Positions 1 to 46,172 of a stretch of DNA of 46,172 nucleotides are shown here, piece by piece; position 1 is the stretch's first letter, and each line of letters begins with the position of its first letter. The notes beneath the pieces are model-generated. The model saw only the letters and a list, made by a program, of their open reading frames with translations, had not been told where the DNA came from and searched no databases. Origin of the DNA: a virus; the IMG/VR virus record IMGVR_UViG_3300037234_000176, positions 1-46,172 of that record; one strand, written 5' to 3'. Position numbers and translations under genes: made by a program.

Positions 1-111
1 TTTAGGGGATGTTACTTTAGAGATACCGCTTACTAAACCCATTGTGATAATAGTTTGTATAGCAACATCAGCGAATCTTTCTACGGTTAAAGCATTTGGG
101 TCTATGCCTGC
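1..111. repeat. Terminal direct repeat, left copy (assembly overlap)
   Basis: Bases 1-111 match 46062-46172 except base 7 (G) versus 46068 (A). The reading frame continues perfectly across the join. The difference is synonymous (Ser TCC versus TCT on the minus strand). This is the signature of a circular or circularly permuted genome cut at an arbitrary point, not of a physical phage end. Confidence 0.95.
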
Positions 112-3700: not shown

Positions 3701-4140
3701 TATTCACCTACCTTACTATACATGATTGCATTCGTTCCGTCTGGATGATATTTTCTCATAGTAAATTCCTTCTTAAATCCGAACCACTTAATAAATCGTA
3801 TACCTTCTTTAAAATCTTCTCGCATAGGTGCTTGTATCCTTACTAAGTTATACTCTTTTTGCCATTCATCTACAAGATGTTTTGATTCTCTCACAAACTC
3901 CATTGTGTAATCTGATATGTCACTTACAAACAAACCCCATATCTCGCCTACTCCAGTCCACATTATTTCAATACCTGAGCATCCTATAATCTTACCATCA
4001 ACTATACCAGTGACAGCAGGGCCTCGTACAGCCTTTATCTCTGCCCATAGTCTAGTTTGGTCAGTCAATTCAAGTCCGGGCTGCTTAGGGTAGCCTAGAA
4101 TCTCAATTGCATCTTCAGGTTTGAATGGTCTTAGAATCAT
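3700..4140 (-). CDS. GNAT-like acetyltransferase protein of the tail cluster
   Basis: 146 residues. The start MILRPFKPEDAIEIL and the later pattern of beta strands (VDGKIIGCSGIEIMWTGVGEIWGLFV) then helix and FIKWFGFKKE are typical of the phage GNAT-fold proteins that sit between tail-spike and internal-virion genes, in the place of T7 gene 13. It overlaps the tail-spike gene upstream by four bases. Substrate unknown. It may modify a virion or host protein, or act only in virion assembly. Confidence 0.6.
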   Translation of the reverse strand: MILRPFKPEDAIEILGYPKQPGLELTDQTRLWAEIKAVRGPAVTGIVDGKIIGCSGIEIMWTGVGEIWGLFVSDISDYTMEFVRESKHLVDEWQKEYNLVRIQAPMREDFKEGIRFIKWFGFKKEFTMRKYHPDGTNAIMYSKVGE

Positions 4141-6110
4141 AGTACCTTTGCTTCCCAGTAAAAGTCAATGTCATTAGATGCACTATTGTTACAAGTAAAC
4201 ACGATATTAGTAGCGTCTACTGAAGAAACTATTAAAAATTCATCGGCAGCCCTACCAGTAGAAGCAGTAACCATTACAGAGGTAGGAGTAGCAGAAAGTC
4301 CGTGTGGAGTGTTAGCAGGACTAGTAACAGTACCGCTAGCAACGATAGTAGCAGTACCAGAACTTTCAGTTACATAACCGTTATTGTCGTGTATCTTATT
4401 ACCTGTACCACTATTAGTTACCGTAGCTGTAAAGATGTTATTAGATACTCTGTTATTAGTAGCACCAACGTTTAAGAGCAAATCAGTAGTATTGCCGTTG
4501 AAGTTACATGAGCCTATTACTCCGTTGTCTCCAAATACTGTTAATCCAGTAACGCAAGTATCAAACACAGTATTAGTTACTATATTATCGCTTGAACCTG
4601 TTCTTAATCCTACAGCAGTACAGTTTGTAAACGATACATTCTCAACACTATTCCTAGTCCCAGCACTTATATCCATGCCAGTACTTACACCGGATATAGA
4701 ACCGTTATTAACCTTGACGTAGTTAGCATTAATGCCAATGCCTTTACTTGTGCTTGAACCTGAGATATAGAAGTTACTAAGAGAACTACCATGCGCACCC
4801 AGCCCTGAAGCGTCTGTCTGTTGGAATAGAATACCTTCAACGCCTACAAGCCCATCAATATTGATATTATTAAGTACACAAGGACTTCTAAGATAAAGTC
4901 CATATTCTTCTGGGTTCGTTATGTGAATATTTTCAAATACAATCCCACTGCTATCACTACCTGTATTCTTAATAAAAACACCAGACCCGCCAGTATCTAC
5001 GATAGTTACATTACTTATCAGGCATCTAGTACAAGTATCATCAGTGAAGTAGATTGAATTACTGTTAGAGTCGTTAATCTTGACATTCTCTATTAAAAGA
5101 TCTGTTACTTTCCCAATGTCAATGCACCAAGCACCTGTCTGCAAAGAACAGTCGCAAGATAAGTCTCTCAATGAACAGAAGTTACTATTGTCGAAGCAAA
5201 CAAGTATCGAACCACCAGCGGCAGCCTTGATTACTGTAGCTTCTTTACCTACGCCTATTACATTAACATTGCTCTTAGCTGTTAAATCTACTGTAGTTAC
5301 AGAGTAAGTACCCTCTGGAAGGAGTACAATTCCACCACCAGCTAATGCACAAGCTGTTATAGCATCGTTAATAGCGTCTGTATCATTAGCAGTTCCGTTA
5401 CCAATAGCACCGTATTCTTTCACACTGTAAACAGGCGCTCTGTTATCAACGTACGCTTTAACTGACTGTTGACTTGCAGGGGCTACGTTTGAATTAGAGG
5501 CCATGTTATCCTCGTCCTTCATACCTAAAACAAGTTGTCCAGCAGGAGCATCAGCAGCACCTACGAGGTTAGCACCAAACGGGCTTACTGTAACAGTGTC
5601 AAGATCAATCTCGCCAGAAGCTAAAGTAGGGCCACCGGCCGAATCGAACTTCAAATAAGCATCTGCCCTATCAATAGAGTTAGGTAATATAGCACTTAAT
5701 GAATCAGGGTCACTTGACGGGAAAGACAAGTGCTTGCCTGACTTAGCAGTATTCTCTTGTATCTGTGTCTGTAGATCATCAAGGGACTTCTCAATTGTTT
5801 CAGCAGGTAATGCACCACCAGTATTCAAATCAGTCTCTTGCACCTGTTCTGTCTGCCTCTGGATAATCAAAGTAGAGCCAGTAGGATAAGTTACAGTAGT
5901 TGTAATAGAACCACCGCTATAATAAGGCAAAGAACCAGTAAATGTAACCGTATAATTGGTAGTTTCAGCAAGCGTTGTAGTCTCACCTGTGGTAGTATCC
6001 CTCAATAATACTTCAAGTTCTGAACTGTCTGCTACTTGGAATGTAAATGGAAATCCAGTAACGGAAGCCCCAGTCTGGTAGCTATTTCTAGAATATGCAC
6101 TTATGGTCAT
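4137..6110 (-). CDS. Tail spike/fibre with pectate-lyase-type beta-helix
   Basis: 657 residues. Residues about 1-125 form the usual podovirus tail-fibre N-terminal adaptor (TISAYSRNSYQTGASVTGFP, then QTEQVQETDLNTGGALPAET), which docks the protein on the tail. From about residue 225 comes a Pectate_lyase_3 start (VYSVKEYGAIGNGTANDTDA followed by GGGIVLLPEGTYSV), then a long right-handed beta-helix rich in NNIN/SNFYISG-type turns. The last about 70 residues form a separate beta-rich tip. This kind of protein binds and often cleaves surface polysaccharide. Catalytic residues cannot be named from sequence alone. It overlaps both neighbours (ATGA), in the tail operon. Confidence 0.85.
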   Translation of the reverse strand: MTISAYSRNSYQTGASVTGFPFTFQVADSSELEVLLRDTTTGETTTLAETTNYTVTFTGSLPYYSGGSITTTVTYPTGSTLIIQRQTEQVQETDLNTGGALPAETIEKSLDDLQTQIQENTAKSGKHLSFPSSDPDSLSAILPNSIDRADAYLKFDSAGGPTLASGEIDLDTVTVSPFGANLVGAADAPAGQLVLGMKDEDNMASNSNVAPASQQSVKAYVDNRAPVYSVKEYGAIGNGTANDTDAINDAITACALAGGGIVLLPEGTYSVTTVDLTAKSNVNVIGVGKEATVIKAAAGGSILVCFDNSNFCSLRDLSCDCSLQTGAWCIDIGKVTDLLIENVKINDSNSNSIYFTDDTCTRCLISNVTIVDTGGSGVFIKNTGSDSSGIVFENIHITNPEEYGLYLRSPCVLNNINIDGLVGVEGILFQQTDASGLGAHGSSLSNFYISGSSTSKGIGINANYVKVNNGSISGVSTGMDISAGTRNSVENVSFTNCTAVGLRTGSSDNIVTNTVFDTCVTGLTVFGDNGVIGSCNFNGNTTDLLLNVGATNNRVSNNIFTATVTNSGTGNKIHDNNGYVTESSGTATIVASGTVTSPANTPHGLSATPTSVMVTASTGRAADEFLIVSSVDATNIVFTCNNSASNDIDFYWEAKVL

Positions 6111-20927: not shown

Positions 20928-20955
20928 ATTATACAACCTTTATGAAATATGTCAA
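20928..20955 (-). promoter_or_regulatory. Late-operon sigma70 promoter
   Basis: -35 TTGACA (20955-20950), 16-base spacer, -10 TATAAT (20933-20928) on the minus strand, directly ahead of the terminase operon. Both boxes match the consensus exactly. Expected start at about 20921-20920, which coincides with the first ATG. Confidence 0.85.
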
Positions 20956-24491: not shown

Positions 24492-24497
24492 TCTTTA

Positions 24498-24524
24498 GCC
24501 CTGCTTAACGGTGGGGCTTTTTTA
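24498..24524 (+). terminator. Intrinsic terminator of the plus operon
   Basis: AGCCC pairs with GGGCT around a 12-base loop and is followed by six T. It is seven bases after the HTH gene and overlaps the stop of the converging minus-strand gene. Read on the minus strand the hairpin is followed by AAAG, so it acts in one direction. Confidence 0.8.
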
Positions 24525-29722: not shown

Positions 29723-30226
29723 TCACCTAAAATCTGTCTCGTCGTCATTGCTTTTACCCATATTACAATCATTACAAAGCACCTGTAGATTTTCAAACTC
29801 TAACTCAAGCTCAGGATACTTACCACGTGGTTTAATATGATCTACACAAATCTTTGCACCTTCTTCTTTCGTAGCACCACACAGCATACACTTAGCTCCA
29901 TACTTTAACAACACTCTGTATCTAAGCTTCTTCCATTTCCAGCTACTATAAAACTCATTATCTTTTTGCTTCTTAATGTCTTTGTGTTCACTTGGATTCT
30001 TCTGTAGATAGTTGTATAGCCTTATTACAGATGCGTTGCCGGTCTTGCACCTAATACCAGTAAAAGCATAACATAACTCTTTCGTGTCGTTCTTTTTAAT
30101 ATTGCCGTTGTAGCTGTAGCGTTTTCTGTACCAATTTTGAATGTAGGTCAACTTCGTACGTATTAAAGCACCAGATTCCATCTTACATCTTCTATTCTCT
30201 TCTCTTTCAGCCCTACTTATACGCAT
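29723..30226 (-). CDS. HNH endonuclease B, linked to structured RNA B
   Basis: 167 residues. HNH core in the C-terminal 75 residues: RVLLKYGAKCMLCGATKEEG, ICVDHIKPRGKYPELELEFE, LQVLCNDCNMGKSNDDETDF, with two CxxC zinc pairs and the catalytic VDHIKP and N residues. This half is about 70 % identical by eye to the HNH protein at 40093, while the N-terminal halves differ. The GTGATCT RBS region starts only 13 bases after the T-run of RNA B's terminator, so expression depends on read-through. Likely a mobile homing-type nuclease. Confidence 0.85.
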   Translation of the reverse strand: MRISRAEREENRRCKMESGALIRTKLTYIQNWYRKRYSYNGNIKKNDTKELCYAFTGIRCKTGNASVIRLYNYLQKNPSEHKDIKKQKDNEFYSSWKWKKLRYRVLLKYGAKCMLCGATKEEGAKICVDHIKPRGKYPELELEFENLQVLCNDCNMGKSNDDETDFR

Positions 30227-30239
30227 AGATCACCACATT

Positions 30240-30359
30240 AAAAAACCGCTTAATCCGGCATTTGGTGTGTATCATGACATACAGGCTAACTAAACCTCGT
30301 TGCCAAACACCGGATTGAACGGTTTGTGTTTTAATATAAGTAGTTAGTTCATACGCCAT
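30240..30359 (-). ncRNA. Structured small RNA B (about 120 nt), paralogue of RNA A
   Basis: Expected start at 30359, seven bases after the -10 box. A 35-base 5' tail, then a 22-bp stem (30324-30303 with 30265-30244) with one C-A mismatch and several wobbles, closing a 37-base loop, then six T. The loop has an AGG-TTTAGTTAG-CCT arm and TGTAT-gtcatg-ATACA arm, giving a possible three-way junction. RNA A at 41000 has the same tail length, loop length, mismatch position and compensatory base pairs. Confidence 0.7.
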
Positions 30360-30365
30360 AATTTA

Positions 30366-30394
30366 ATAATAGGCTTTGTGTGTGGGATTGTCAA
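30366..30394 (-). promoter_or_regulatory. Sigma70 promoter of RNA B
   Basis: -35 TTGACA (30394-30389), 17-base spacer, -10 TATTAT (30371-30366). Box sequences, spacer length and distance to the following ATGG are the same as in the RNA A promoter at 41035. Confidence 0.85.
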
Positions 30395-37577: not shown

Positions 37578-37735
37578 TCTTTTACCTCTTTCAGCAGGGT
37601 AATTCTTATCCTATGATTTACCCCATCTACACTAACAGGGAACTCAGCCTCTTCTACACCTTCATTTAAGAGATGATCTGCCATAAGTGTTGCCCATACT
37701 CTAGCTTTTTTACGATGTAATTCTAATTCATTCAT
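37574..37735 (-). CDS. Hypothetical protein (53 aa)
   Basis: MNELELHRKKARVWATLMAD then HLLNEGVEEAEFPVSVDGVN: a helix followed by beta strands. Overlaps the YopX-like gene stop and the RHH gene start by four bases each. Function unknown. Confidence 0.55.
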   Translation of the reverse strand: MNELELHRKKARVWATLMADHLLNEGVEEAEFPVSVDGVNHRIRITLLKEVKE

Positions 37736-38106
37736 TCTTGCTCCAATAATTCAGGGTGTTCGTATTTATTGCCGATGATTTTCCCTTCGCTACAGTGTGG
37801 ACTAAATCGGTACTTCCCATAATCCCTAGGCCATTTATGTTCAAACCTGCCGTCACAAAATTCAACAACACAATTAAAATATTTATATTTTGTGCTCTTA
37901 CCACCGTTGCCAGTTCCAAATTCTAGTCTTATTATATCGCCCTCTCGTATCTCTGTGCCTTCTGAGTCCTTTATGCCTGTGTAGAATACTGGGATGCAGC
38001 CATAAGTTAAACCGCCGTCACAATACAACATGCCGAAACTGTCTAACATGTAATCAAGTGATTGTTCCCATTTCTTTTTCTTTTTGTTCCATACGTCAAA
38101 TTTCAT
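37732..38106 (-). CDS. YopX-like protein, copy 1
   Basis: 124 residues. MKFDVWNKKKKKWEQ, then a CIPVFYTGIKDSEGTEIREGDII block (split here: CIPVFYTGIKDSEG, TEIREGDIIRLEF), then KIIGNKYEHPELLEQE: the standard YopX pattern (Y-T-G-x-x-D-x-x-G-x-x-I-x-x-G-D-I ... I-G-N-x-Y-E-N-P-E-L-L). Found widely in phages of both Gram types; molecular function not established. Paralogue at 41247. RBS GAAAGGCAAACATT. Confidence 0.85.
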   Translation of the reverse strand: MKFDVWNKKKKKWEQSLDYMLDSFGMLYCDGGLTYGCIPVFYTGIKDSEGTEIREGDIIRLEFGTGNGGKSTKYKYFNCVVEFCDGRFEHKWPRDYGKYRFSPHCSEGKIIGNKYEHPELLEQE

Positions 38107-38391: not shown

Positions 38392-38420
38392 ATAGTAGCA
38401 GTCTTGTAGATTAGTGTCAA
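38392..38420 (-). promoter_or_regulatory. Sigma70 promoter
   Basis: -35 TTGACA (38420-38415), 17-base spacer beginning CTAATCTACA, -10 TACTAT (38397-38392). Drives the membrane, YopX-like, RHH and ERF group. Same 16-base start as the promoter at 27928. Confidence 0.8.
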
Positions 38421-40092: not shown

Positions 40093-40611
40093 TTAGTGTA
40101 TGTTAGGTCGGAAATCTGTTTCATATTTATAACTCTTGCCCATGTTACAGTCATTACAAAGCACCTGCATGTTATCAAACTCTAATTCAAGATCTGGGTG
40201 TAGCCTTCGTGGTTTAATATGGTCTACACAAATTATTGCTCCTGAATCTTTAGTTGCGCCACACAACATGCACGTAGCTCCATATTCTAATAGTACCCTG
40301 AACCTAAGATCTTTCCAAGCCCAACTCTTATAGAAATCCTTATTGCCTGTAAAAGTGGGCTTAACTTTCTGCTTTCTAGCTGAAACTCTTTTCTTTAATC
40401 TATCATCTACGAACCTATTACCTTTAAGATCACCATTCTTTAAAAGGAGATTAAAATAATCATGTATAGTTTTTCGATAGCCTTTAATAAACGTGCCTGT
40501 TTCTTTACGCGCTATCTGGCATATCCTAGCTTTACTTACAGACCATCTTTTTGTCAAACCCTTCCTGTAACAATACTCTTGCAAAGCCATAAATTTACTT
40601 AGATTTCTCAT
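40093..40611 (-). CDS. HNH endonuclease A, linked to structured RNA A
   Basis: 172 residues. C-terminal HNH core: RVLLEYGATCMLCGATKDSG, ICVDHIKPRRLHPDLELEFD, MQVLCNDCNMGKSYKYETDF, nearly the same as in the 29723 gene; the N-terminal about 90 residues are basic, helical (KRWSVSKARICQIARKETGT) and unrelated to the other copy. Likely a mobile endonuclease whose DNA-binding part has been exchanged. RNA A lies about 270 bases upstream. Confidence 0.85.
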   Translation of the reverse strand: MRNLSKFMALQEYCYRKGLTKRWSVSKARICQIARKETGTFIKGYRKTIHDYFNLLLKNGDLKGNRFVDDRLKKRVSARKQKVKPTFTGNKDFYKSWAWKDLRFRVLLEYGATCMLCGATKDSGAIICVDHIKPRRLHPDLELEFDNMQVLCNDCNMGKSYKYETDFRPNIH

Positions 40612-40878
40612 TATAATCTCCGGTGTTTATTTCTAGGCACACCAATCCCTATTGCATCTCTCTCAGTATGCTTAATGATGGGTGAATAGTTAATCAGCGA
40701 AACTACTCGTTCTGTTCTTTGTTATGCGCCAAGAGAGTAAACTATGCAATTACTTGGGTGTACTAGATAGAGCCTGAACCTATAAGCATTGGGAGCCATT
40801 TTATACACATAACGAACATAGACATGATTTAAACTTTGTAAAAAATTGGGTACGTGCCTTTTGATATTATAAACCCAT
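40611..40878 (-). other. Interval between RNA A and HNH A: no certain gene, orphan coding-like fragment
   Basis: The frame that begins at 41000 and spans RNA A stops at 40722. In the same frame, directly after the TAA, 36 codons (40721-40611) read QRTERVVSLINYSPIIKHTE then RDAIGIGVPRNKHRRL, which looks protein-like but has no start codon. Its TAA overlaps the HNH start. It may be a gene remnant beside a mobile element. No promoter or hairpin was seen here. Confidence 0.4.
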
Positions 40879-41000
40879 AAAAAAAGCCGCATAATCTGAT
40901 GTTCGGAGATGTTCGATAATGGAAGGTATACTAAGCCTTTTAACCAAACACCAGATTGTGCGACCTCATTACAGCTTATATTGTCAGTATGTTTATCCAT
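40879..41000 (-). ncRNA. Structured small RNA A (about 122 nt)
   Basis: Expected start at 41000, seven bases after the -10 box. A 36-base tail; 21-bp stem (40964-40944 with 40906-40886) with one C-A mismatch; 37-base loop with AGG-CTTAGTATA-CCT and TTC-cattatc-GAA arms; then seven T. Same lengths and plan as RNA B. Stem pairs differ by compensation (T-A here, C-G there, after the shared CAATC; A-T here, T-A there, in the lower stem). A peptide frame starting at the first base is an alternative reading. Confidence 0.7.
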
Positions 41001-41006
41001 ACTCTA

Positions 41007-41035
41007 ATAATATACATCTTGCCAAGTAATGTCAA
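41007..41035 (-). promoter_or_regulatory. Sigma70 promoter of RNA A
   Basis: -35 TTGACA (41035-41030), 17-base spacer, -10 TATTAT (41012-41007). The -35 box begins three bases after the T-run of the preceding terminator. The next ATGG starts at the expected +1. Confidence 0.87.
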
Positions 41036-41037
41036 AT

Positions 41038-41070
41038 AAAAAACCTGAAAATTTTTAGTTCTCAGGTTTT
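41038..41070 (-). terminator. Terminator ending short RNA 2
   Basis: Minus strand: AAAACCTGA pairs with TTCAGGTTTT (CCTGA/TCAGG core) around an A/T-rich loop, then six T. It is joined directly to the RNA A promoter. Confidence 0.75.
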
Positions 41071-41104
41071 AGTTCAACCGAAATCTCAGAAAGATCTACT
41101 AGTC
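41038..41104 (-). ncRNA. Short RNA 2 (about 67 nt), predicted
   Basis: From the +1 of the 41138-41111 promoter to the T-run at 41043-41038. No reading frame of note inside. Contains GAACTAAAA twice and CTGAGA twice. Predicted only from promoter and terminator positions. Confidence 0.5.
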
Positions 41105-41110
41105 ACTATC

Positions 41111-41138
41111 ATTATAGCACCATGTAAGCATAAGTCAA
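41111..41138 (-). promoter_or_regulatory. Sigma70 promoter of short RNA 2
   Basis: -35 TTGACT (41138-41133), 16-base spacer ending GGTGC, -10 TATAAT (41116-41111). The -35 box starts two bases after the preceding terminator's T-run. Resembles the promoter at 41896 (shared TTGACTTAT and GTGGTGC/ATGGTGC elements). Confidence 0.82.
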
Positions 41139-41140
41139 AT

Positions 41141-41167
41141 AAAAAACCCCCACTCAATGGCAGGGGT
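41141..41167 (-). terminator. Terminator ending short RNA 1 and the YopX-like operon
   Basis: ACCCC pairs with GGGGT around TGCCATTGAGT(G), followed by TTTTTT on the minus strand. Strong GC stem and T-run. Directly followed by the next promoter. Confidence 0.82.
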
Positions 41168-41226
41168 CATATCATCATGCTCTTACATCTGCTAAGGAAT
41201 GGCTGATGATGGCGATCGTTCTAGCT
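41141..41226 (-). ncRNA. Short RNA 1 (about 86 nt), predicted
   Basis: From the +1 of the 41260-41233 promoter to the terminator at 41167-41141. ATCATCA pairs with TGATGAT to form a 7-bp arm before the terminator stem. No credible reading frame. Predicted from signals only. Confidence 0.5.
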
Positions 41227-41232
41227 ACTCTC

Positions 41233-41260
41233 ATTATATACAACTGTTATTGTTTGTCAA
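41233..41260 (-). promoter_or_regulatory. Sigma70 promoter of short RNA 1
   Basis: -35 TTGACA (41260-41255), 16-base spacer, -10 TATAAT (41238-41233): exact consensus boxes. Overlaps the last codons of the YopX-like gene. Confidence 0.85.
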
Positions 41261-41624
41261 GTAATTCAGGGTTCTCGTATTCGTTGTGAGAGTAAGTAAA
41301 CTCGTGCATATATGTAAAACTATTGTTTCTTGCTAGAAGGCTATATTTATCTGCCTTGTATTTACTCCAAAACTCAACTGTAAAGCCTTCTATCTCATGG
41401 AACCTCACTATGTATACATGATCTTTGCTCAAGTCACAGGGATACACATCACCATCACGGTACTTTACACCGTCTAGCTCTATGTAGTAGATTGGGATGC
41501 AATCGTGCTCAATGCTTTTATCACAGCTTTCTATATAATCCAACTCGCCGCTATGGTATATAAACCAATTTAGAGGCTCTGTTACCCATTCCTTAGTCTC
41601 TGTGTTAAATACGTCAAATTTCAT
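41247..41624 (-). CDS. YopX-like protein, copy 2
   Basis: 125 residues. MKFDVFNTETKEWVT at the start, CIPIYYIELDGVKYRDGDVY in the middle, HNEYENPELLDKQ at the end: divergent but clear YopX layout, paralogous to the 37732 protein. Overlaps the 75-codon gene upstream by four bases. A consensus promoter for a short RNA lies across its 3' end. Confidence 0.8.
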   Translation of the reverse strand: MKFDVFNTETKEWVTEPLNWFIYHSGELDYIESCDKSIEHDCIPIYYIELDGVKYRDGDVYPCDLSKDHVYIVRFHEIEGFTVEFWSKYKADKYSLLARNNSFTYMHEFTYSHNEYENPELLDKQ

Positions 41625-41868: not shown

Positions 41869-41896
41869 ATTGTAGCACCACGTCTCTATAAGTCAA
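41869..41896 (-). promoter_or_regulatory. Sigma70 promoter of the YopX-like operon
   Basis: -35 TTGACT (41896-41891), 16-base spacer, -10 TACAAT (41874-41869). Begins two bases after the T-run of the terminator that closes the holin-like gene. Confidence 0.8.
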
Positions 41897-41898
41897 TT

Positions 41899-41936
41899 AA
41901 AAAACCCTGCTAGGAAAGGGAAGAAACCTAACAGGG
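41899..41936 (-). terminator. Terminator after the lysis genes
   Basis: CCCTGTTAGG pairs with CCTAGCAGGG (10 bp, one wobble) around a 12-base loop, then six T. Ends the late transcription unit. Confidence 0.87.
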
Positions 41937-41958
41937 CCAAGGGAAGGAAAAAACTTAT

Positions 41959-45900: not shown

Positions 45901-46172
45901 TTTTCGCTTAATGTTTCCTTGAATACTTCGTTAAACTCTTGTTCTGACGTTTCAAACTTCTTTTTAGTTTCAGTTAGTACATCTTGCATCTCGTCTGGTG
46001 TTAGGTTTAACTTCTGAGATACTTTCTCAGTGTCACGTATTAACTTCTCATCAACTGTGTCTTTAGGAGATGTTACTTTAGAGATACCGCTTACTAAACC
46101 CATTGTGATAATAGTTTGTATAGCAACATCAGCGAATCTTTCTACGGTTAAAGCATTTGGGTCTATGCCTGC
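42939..46172 (-). CDS. Internal virion protein D-like ejection protein, C-terminal part (gene crosses the contig ends)
   Basis: Continuation of the gene that starts at 1410. The right end of the contig repeats bases 1-111, so about 37 codons are present twice. The internal Met at 46103 is not the real start. After the junction the protein has a Glu/Pro/Thr-rich linker (about 130 residues) with long charged stretches, then an Ala-rich helix (KIIAAAAAEIGTIAETSAEK), then about 850 residues of mixed helix with hydrophobic segments such as IARLSHTIRGAQFVSKVALS and WMAGTAIAGELYNMLRDFLF. It ends three bases before the next late gene. Total 1,510 residues, slightly longer than T7 gp16 (1,318). Function inferred: virion-carried DNA-ejection protein. 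Confidence 0.8.
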   Translation of the reverse strand, partial: AGIDPNALTVERFADVAIQTIITMGLVSGISKVTSPKDTVDEKLIRDTEKVSQKLNLTPDEMQDVLTETKKKFETSEQEFNEVFKETLSEKVEKKNGIEAEPEIVEDKLKETPTDALGETISPETTTDAVIEEQAVTEPLKPTEKEIAPVVEKAPPQERPLPKTAGQAKIIAAAAAEIGTIAETSAEKIKGIAKSVKSLSGKLVQRATTRFTKLGESGKQVSGDLKEIAFRSQKNANVDIADTNVVLHGVSHKNRILVSQAINKRVALNSLPKWLQPKVAQMRKILDRSLKAAQGLGVQRRVKGQKIDIAGSGKAYPQALNTKGQKLVAEARAKGPDSQKVFDAAQKIVDSGQAKDIPDAITKIQQFSDQQLRGLNRYLEATRIELPPEFIEWDIQKVLPNLVEGNWLTLEAIRQWDYDQAGQSFPKANELIEKIKSEQGTDASKEVEDFIKFSFGAEKAPTDIARLSHTIRGAQFVSKVALSPLTIIRNMLDRGVKGLTIGDISTNVKATALYPPFLNKWIKESQRIENDMIRAGAISGHGAISADVEAGQRTAVAIGKPFSSSERGNQVFIALVRKLQMEKDLAKLVAKHNQNPKVKKFLNRVDAIMGNSEKQLRYRLEKETLDFDTITTESLVDEWVNNGGQVSEEQFERILHRAVRDKTFPVILSTKRSWWDKSPLMRVFAQFKTWPVEQTAHIYNDVLKYTLKTGDPSRLARWMAGTAIAGELYNMLRDFLFDKDESVTKKIVKGESADEIMLAIANDFLDGGGVGMFADFSYGLTNWAVGVSGNSLKNLKRFTTDLYDNPSNAADAFGQLAENESSSIRQVRAVLTKLDQQDNAGSVAQEYWPARSKAFDWRDDKQFPTTTKKIGKALKEFLGGRPTFTRTAKTLSYDLAARQVIVGDIDDAAKHLGRILDDVDIKNVDDITDVIKGIKGSADSKSPLGPVNDEDMEEFLKTVPDVGEVTQAQADWTKAYNEAIVIAAGSRWDKNTPGMKDYLGKLAKKLSGNSINKTPLERQFIIDFAKAMGASLDEMNQYLAENMDKVNGVPVSDNQITSRNRALTNRSNKMFTDWNRK
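46062..46172. repeat. Terminal direct repeat, right copy (assembly overlap)
   Basis: Second copy of the 111-base overlap. Removing one copy gives a circle of about 46,061 bp and joins the two parts of the internal virion protein D gene in frame. Confidence 0.95.

Follow-up and report, generated by a model that had tools for sequence, protein, structure and literature searches.

Bacteriophage T7 has three strong host promoters for early transcription, A1, A2 and A3, with no terminators between them, and its RNase III site R0.3 is a long hairpin; the R sites of T7 carry no U-run. The lambda sib/tI hairpin can be used both as a terminator and as an RNase III site, with sib acting on the upstream gene int. 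Cassettes of the promoter-early stem-loop (PeSL) type lie between genes. They are known from T4-like phages (Arbiol 2010 and Comeau 2014, as cited in PMC4503421) and consist of an early sigma70-type promoter with a terminator stem-loop, situated between early genes and linked to gene shuffling. In phage HK022 the put element, ~70 nt located behind an early promoter and folded into two adjacent stem-loops, brings about antitermination in cis via the zinc-binding domain of the RNA polymerase beta' subunit (PMC9378689). Very few small or structured RNAs are known from virulent phages, and most have no assigned function; the small ones include bands C and D of T4 and sRNA1/2 of PAK_P3, whose functions are not known, and the PAK_P3 RNAs were seen by RNA-seq as late transcripts (PMC4933390).

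The window analysed here, 46,172 bases in its entirety, is a near-complete phage genome. Its two ends share 104 bp (8-111 and 46069-46172); when they are joined, a single frame of 1515 residues crosses the junction. The end overlap (window 1-111 and 46069-46172) thus falls within a 1515-aa gene, whose product is ~80% identical to its counterpart in the relative over the C-terminal part, compared with 25-60% for most other proteins. The proteins are of podovirus type, among them a portal (head-tail adaptor), major head, tail tube, tail fibre and internal virion proteins. A single, distant relative covering the locus was found in IMG/VR, IMGVR_UViG_3300037234_000192 (41.7 kb; L001 in the coordinates below), which shows broad synteny with the window and has proteins 25-81% identical. 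The fragment L089 encodes a 99%-identical protein but ends short of the array locus. The annotated phage collection contained no DNA relatives of the window and no relatives of two flanking proteins, one of which, of 1054 aa, had no relative in the genome contigs either. Elsewhere in the window, divergent consensus promoters at 20955 (minus) and 21029 (plus) separate the late genes from a cluster of small plus-strand genes, which ends in a terminator at 24497-24518 (plus) that is nearly identical in the relative.

On the minus strand, three predicted promoters of the sigma70 type, with starts of the -35 box at 41260, 41138 and 41035, are each followed by an intrinsic terminator (Table 1). This layout had been proposed from a sequence-only reading; all of its coordinates were verified, and the recomputed lengths of the predicted RNAs agree with the 86, 67 and 122 nt that it gave. 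All three units have a G+C-containing stem with a U-run directly after it; terminators 1 and 2 are of the ordinary type and unit 3 is atypical, with a loop of 37 nt. The reading had further noted that the first two T-runs abut the next -35 box, and in each case the T-run does stop 2 nt short of the following TTGAC. The same joint was found at the other place claimed, 41936-41869, where the late-operon terminator is fused to the promoter at 41896 (joint 41904-41892), again with 2 nt between the end of the T-run and TTGAC. The three strong array promoters, which head the early region, are spaced 104-122 bp apart. Over 44 bp, T-run included, promoter 41896 matches promoter 41138 at 80% identity, a sign of cassette duplication; such duplicated segments agree with a shuffling of cassettes. 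Another duplicated promoter segment, CTTGACACTAATCTACA, is carried by the promoters at 38420 and 27928, both on the minus strand.

Table 1. Features of the array, of the second copy of the unit 3 element and of the flanking genes (positions in the window)
Feature	Position	Strand	Details
Unit 1 promoter	41233..41260	-	TTGACA-16-TATAAT, 12/12 consensus bases
Unit 2 promoter	41111..41138	-	TTGACT-16-TATAAT, 11/12, TG before -10; 2 nt behind T-run 1
Unit 3 promoter	41007..41035	-	TTGACA-17-TATTAT, 11/12; 2 nt behind T-run 2
Early promoter	41869..41896	-	TTGACT-16-TACAAT, 10/12; before genes 41848-41621 and 41624-41247
Unit 1 terminator	41168-41145	-	9 bp, T-run 41146-41141
Unit 2 terminator	41070-41040	-	12 bp, T-run 41043-41038
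Late-operon intrinsic terminator	41899..41937	-	11-bp stem 41937-41904, T-run 41904-41899, -17.5 kcal/mol
Unit 1 predicted RNA	41141..41226	-	~86 nt, terminator 41168-41145, UCCUUAGC apical loop
Unit 2 predicted RNA	41038..41104	-	67 nt, terminator 41070-41040
Unit 3 predicted RNA	40879..41000	-	~122 nt: leader, 24-bp hairpin 40967-40883, 37-nt loop, U7
Second-copy promoter	30366..30394	-	TTGACA-17-TATTAT
Second copy of unit 3 element	30236..30371	-	hairpin 30325-30243, 22/23 bp, 37-nt loop, U-run
YopX-like gene	41247..41624	-	weak Pfam score alone; family via paralogues; 3' end overlaps promoter 41260
Untranslated stretch	40612..40878	-	unit 3 to HNH gene; no strong promoter found
HNH endonuclease gene	40093..40611	-	first gene behind unit 3
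HNH endonuclease gene	29723..30226	-	directly behind second unit 3 copy

The arrangement of the array is not a chance product. When the minus strand was dinucleotide-shuffled 150 times, no terminator-promoter joint and no tandem promoter-terminator-promoter-terminator order appeared, compared with three and one, respectively, in the real sequence. A T-run adjoining TTGAC is, taken alone, not rare (19 of 100 whole-window shuffles), and the significance of the joint comes from the hairpins and -10 boxes, not from the T-run next to TTGAC. The joint pattern occurs three times in the window, once in the relative and in 2 of 30 other phage contigs. Fused joints as such are present in many viral contigs; tandem promoter-terminator units are rare, the order being seen elsewhere only once in 3.36 Mb strand-bases from loci selected in part for carrying a joint. 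That sole other tandem pair among the phage loci scanned lies in L199, at about 5519-5230 on the minus strand.

The array had been assigned to the border between late and early genes. It does come after the late genes and at the head of early ones, but because it starts after the early YopX gene it lies inside the early block and not exactly at the boundary. In the syntenic place of the relative we find a promoter at 4835, a terminator, a promoter at 4928 and a long hairpin (L001 coordinates), and one further unit upstream, where a promoter at 3727 is followed by a terminator and then by the extended -10 element TGCTATAAT. In both phages the unit promoters overlie the 3' ends of the preceding genes. 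The joints bracket a 75-aa gene and the YopX-like gene in the window; in the relative they bracket a Tad2 anti-Thoeris gene together with two YopX genes. Such differing genes between conserved joints indicate an early accessory block with exchangeable genes. The Tad2-like gene of the relative (L001 4588-4842) is immediately upstream of its array. Paralogous YopX-like genes are scattered over the early region of both phages (window 37732-38106 and 41247-41624; L001 3867-4229, 4226-4576 and 5834-6181), with the start MKFDVFN conserved at the DNA level. The gap from unit 3 to the first gene is 265 nt in the window and 315 nt in the relative, where that first gene is not an HNH gene and no HNH gene is found at that place. 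The relative also has a perfect 21-bp hairpin with an 8-nt loop (L001 about 5304-5353), which resembles an RNase III site and lies in the untranslated stretch downstream of its unit 3, just ahead of the first early gene.

Units 1 and 2 contain no reading frames, as had been stated, and are non-coding. Unit 2 has two homologues in the relative, relA (L001:3773-3832) and relB (L001:4864-4928), and the family of three has GATAGTG at the start and a terminator with CCTGAGA and an A-rich loop with compensated bases. The body of unit 1 resembles relA (p = 0.002 before correction, six comparisons), the two having CC[AC]TTCCTTAG...TGT.AGAG in common. Both carry CC[AC]UUCCUUAG in the predicted apical loop, which places TCCTT, complementary to the Shine-Dalgarno sequence AAGGA, in the loop of each, and a possible interpretation is that of an anti-Shine-Dalgarno loop. 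Beyond such short motifs there is little conservation in the bodies of units 1 and 2. Predicted binding of RNA1 and RNA2 to the translation starts of their own genome was not above that of shuffles (best p = 0.9 and 0.63; mean p = 0.1 and 0.07), and the same test on relA and relB was marginal (~0.03).

Unit 3 is a new structured RNA, covarying and conserved in evolution, and has no Rfam match. Its hairpin, with 24 bp, a 37-nt loop and a run of seven T, is missed by simple terminator scans. The two phages agree in its geometry (24 positions, one of them mismatched, 37 nt in the loop and seven U), and the -10 region and the bases following it are conserved in the relative. Of the 22 pairs formed in both phages, 9 are changed on both sides and 5 on one side; when the partner was slid by 1-3 columns as a control, 0-1 double changes remained. 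When the two copies were used to train a covariance model, it recovered a third one at window 30371-30236, with a score of 66.9 bits (E = 1.4e-10 to 3e-10; E-values from such home-made models are rough). This second copy in the window ends 10 nt before the start codon of an HNH gene, with no other promoter between, and the two HNH genes of the window (29723-30226 and 40093-40611) encode C-terminal HNH domains that are 75% identical joined to unrelated N-terminal parts. In the three-copy alignment 98.5% of the cells are paired and 10 of 22 pairs have changes on both sides; this alignment was fitted to the structure, and the two-phage alignment with its 9 double changes was not. No hairpin in either genome is longer than these three copies. 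The leader is ~33 nt in unit 3 and about 33-39 nt over the copies, and a leader-loop pseudoknot is formable in all three (p = 0.11, 0.11 and 0.48).

The stem forms 22-23 pairs on the transcribed strand compared with at best 15 on the other, the difference arising from G-U pairs, which argues for an RNA rather than a DNA site; the clearly poorer pairing on the opposite strand led us to reject a DNA cruciform or binding site. A coding reading was considered for a 92-aa frame from 41000 and a 48-codon frame from 30359, both containing QSGVWxxGLVxL, and rejected because the three codon positions show the same level of identity (23, 23 and 24 of 48) and the relative has no such frame. The strand bias of the pairing, together with the lack of codon-position bias, indicates selection on RNA structure. 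The exactly conserved loop length of 37 nt suggests a role beyond termination, and the helix of 22-23 bp in all three copies is of the length of an RNase III site (~20 bp or more). Rfam gave nothing above the gathering cut-off. The covariance search that the sequence-only reading had put forward for the units was productive within the genome itself, through the second copy of unit 3; the models R1, R2 and R3 had no matches in the other phage contigs tested. The elements are thus far known from two phages, with three copies of unit 3. Exact-pattern matches in L212, L218 and L219 are not homologous: the first sits on the reverse strand of genes, and for the other two the E-value with model R2 is only 0.28-1.

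With PeSL cassettes the locus shares the fusion of an early sigma70-type promoter with a terminator stem-loop, and the 80% identical 44-bp promoter copies bracket exchangeable early genes (YopX, Tad2). The known cassettes belong to T4-like myoviruses, whereas the present phage has the portal, tail tube and internal virion proteins of a podovirus; moreover, its units are stacked without intervening genes and one of them contains a 24-bp covarying hairpin. We therefore regard the array as PeSL-like and not as a member of the class, since the phage is not T4-like. It resembles the T7 early region in having three strong host promoters ~100-125 bp apart and a long hairpin before the first early gene, but differs in the terminators between the promoters and in the U-run of the hairpin. 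Nor was a T7-type RNA polymerase recognised, no match being found in the genome by a search whose positive control was likewise empty. In lambda pR'-6S RNA-tR' and HK022 PL-putL (PMC9378689), too, a promoter is followed by a short RNA and a terminator upstream of an operon, but these are single units dependent on Q or put, neither of which was found here; unit 3, a single long hairpin with no Rfam match, does not have the form of HK022 put. Unlike lambda sib, the unit 3 hairpin sits in a 5' leader, and unlike the PAK_P3 RNAs, the units have predicted early promoters, are set in arrays and are predicted from the sequence.

These observations lead us to suggest, tentatively and with confidence just short of even, that the array consists of duplicated PeSL-like cassettes of host-sigma70 promoter and terminator heading the early region, in which unit 3 would serve as an attenuator leader in cis and units 1 and 2 would yield short transcripts that stand alone. 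On entry of the phage DNA, host RNA polymerase would start at each strong promoter and would mostly be stopped within 67-122 nt. Each terminator would also close the preceding transcription unit, the next promoter being fused to its T-run in a PeSL-like joint. Units 1 and 2, with no gene of their own, would give stand-alone terminated RNAs, while unit 3 and the 30.3-kb copy would be distinct cis-regulatory leaders acting as attenuators, so that the genes behind unit 3 (HNH, early operon) would be expressed by limited readthrough; RNase III may perhaps cut the long 22-23-bp stem. A cis-acting leader is at least as likely as a function in trans because both unit 3 and its copy precede genes. Several points count against attenuation, namely the 37-nt loop, which is large for an intrinsic terminator, the exact conservation of its length, the long gap to a first gene that is not HNH in the relative, and the fact that efficient terminators would leave three strong promoters feeding little downstream, which goes unexplained.

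The sequence-only reading had favoured a phage-encoded small-RNA array, in which the units would be genes for RNAs made right after entry that act in trans, through base pairing or the binding of proteins, on RNAs of the host or the phage. The lack of reading frames in units 1 and 2, each with a promoter and terminator of its own, agrees with this, as do the three homologous members of the unit 2 family across the two phages, the covariation of unit 3 as an RNA and the apical-loop motif of unit 1 and relA complementary to AAGGA (with the uncorrected p = 0.002). It fared less well in the own-genome target tests, which gave no significant result for the window RNAs and a marginal one for relA and relB, and in the poor conservation of the unit 1 and 2 bodies outside short motifs; on balance we consider it rather unlikely. 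We find it unlikely, too, that the elements amount to a new phage RNA family, defined by promoter, ~33-39-nt leader, 23-24-bp stem, exact 37-nt loop and U-run, which, acting in trans or in cis, would regulate the host polymerase or a host defence and would travel with early genes such as HNH, with an inner loop hairpin that may pair with the leader and with the array as a dedicated set of early regulatory RNAs.

Insulation of neighbouring operons had been offered as the alternative. Together with promoter stacking, it would mean that the tandem promoters drive the early genes in the manner of T7 A1-A3, that the terminators exclude upstream transcription, and that the short RNAs are by-products. 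The joint at 41936-41869, which ends the late operon and starts the early one, makes this partly right, and it is also favoured by the close spacing of three strong promoters at the head of the early region; yet a terminator downstream of each promoter would block the feeding of early genes, and both the conserved 24-bp/37-nt hairpin and the unit 2 family are left unexplained, which makes insulation and stacking by themselves improbable. Antitermination, with put-like or Q-like entry sites rendering RNA polymerase terminator-resistant and the stacked terminators passed on cue, would account for a layout matching those of lambda pR'-tR' and HK022 put (PMC9378689) and would give a use to the leader-to-apical-loop helix formable in unit 3 and its copy. 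However, that helix is not significant, no antiterminator was recognised among the proteins scanned, and one long hairpin stands against the two adjacent stem-loops of put RNA; we judge it quite improbable.

The start and end points of the RNAs are predicted to the base, which makes the question directly testable in vitro with sigma70 polymerase. Inspection of nucleotide sequence has here yielded an RNA that is conserved, covaries and occurs twice in one genome. If unit 3 attenuates, the locus would represent dosing of early genes by built-in termination in a podovirus without a recognised RNA polymerase of its own. If unit 3 instead acts in trans, it would be a new early-acting phage RNA encoded near probable anti-defence genes, such as Tad2 in the relative.
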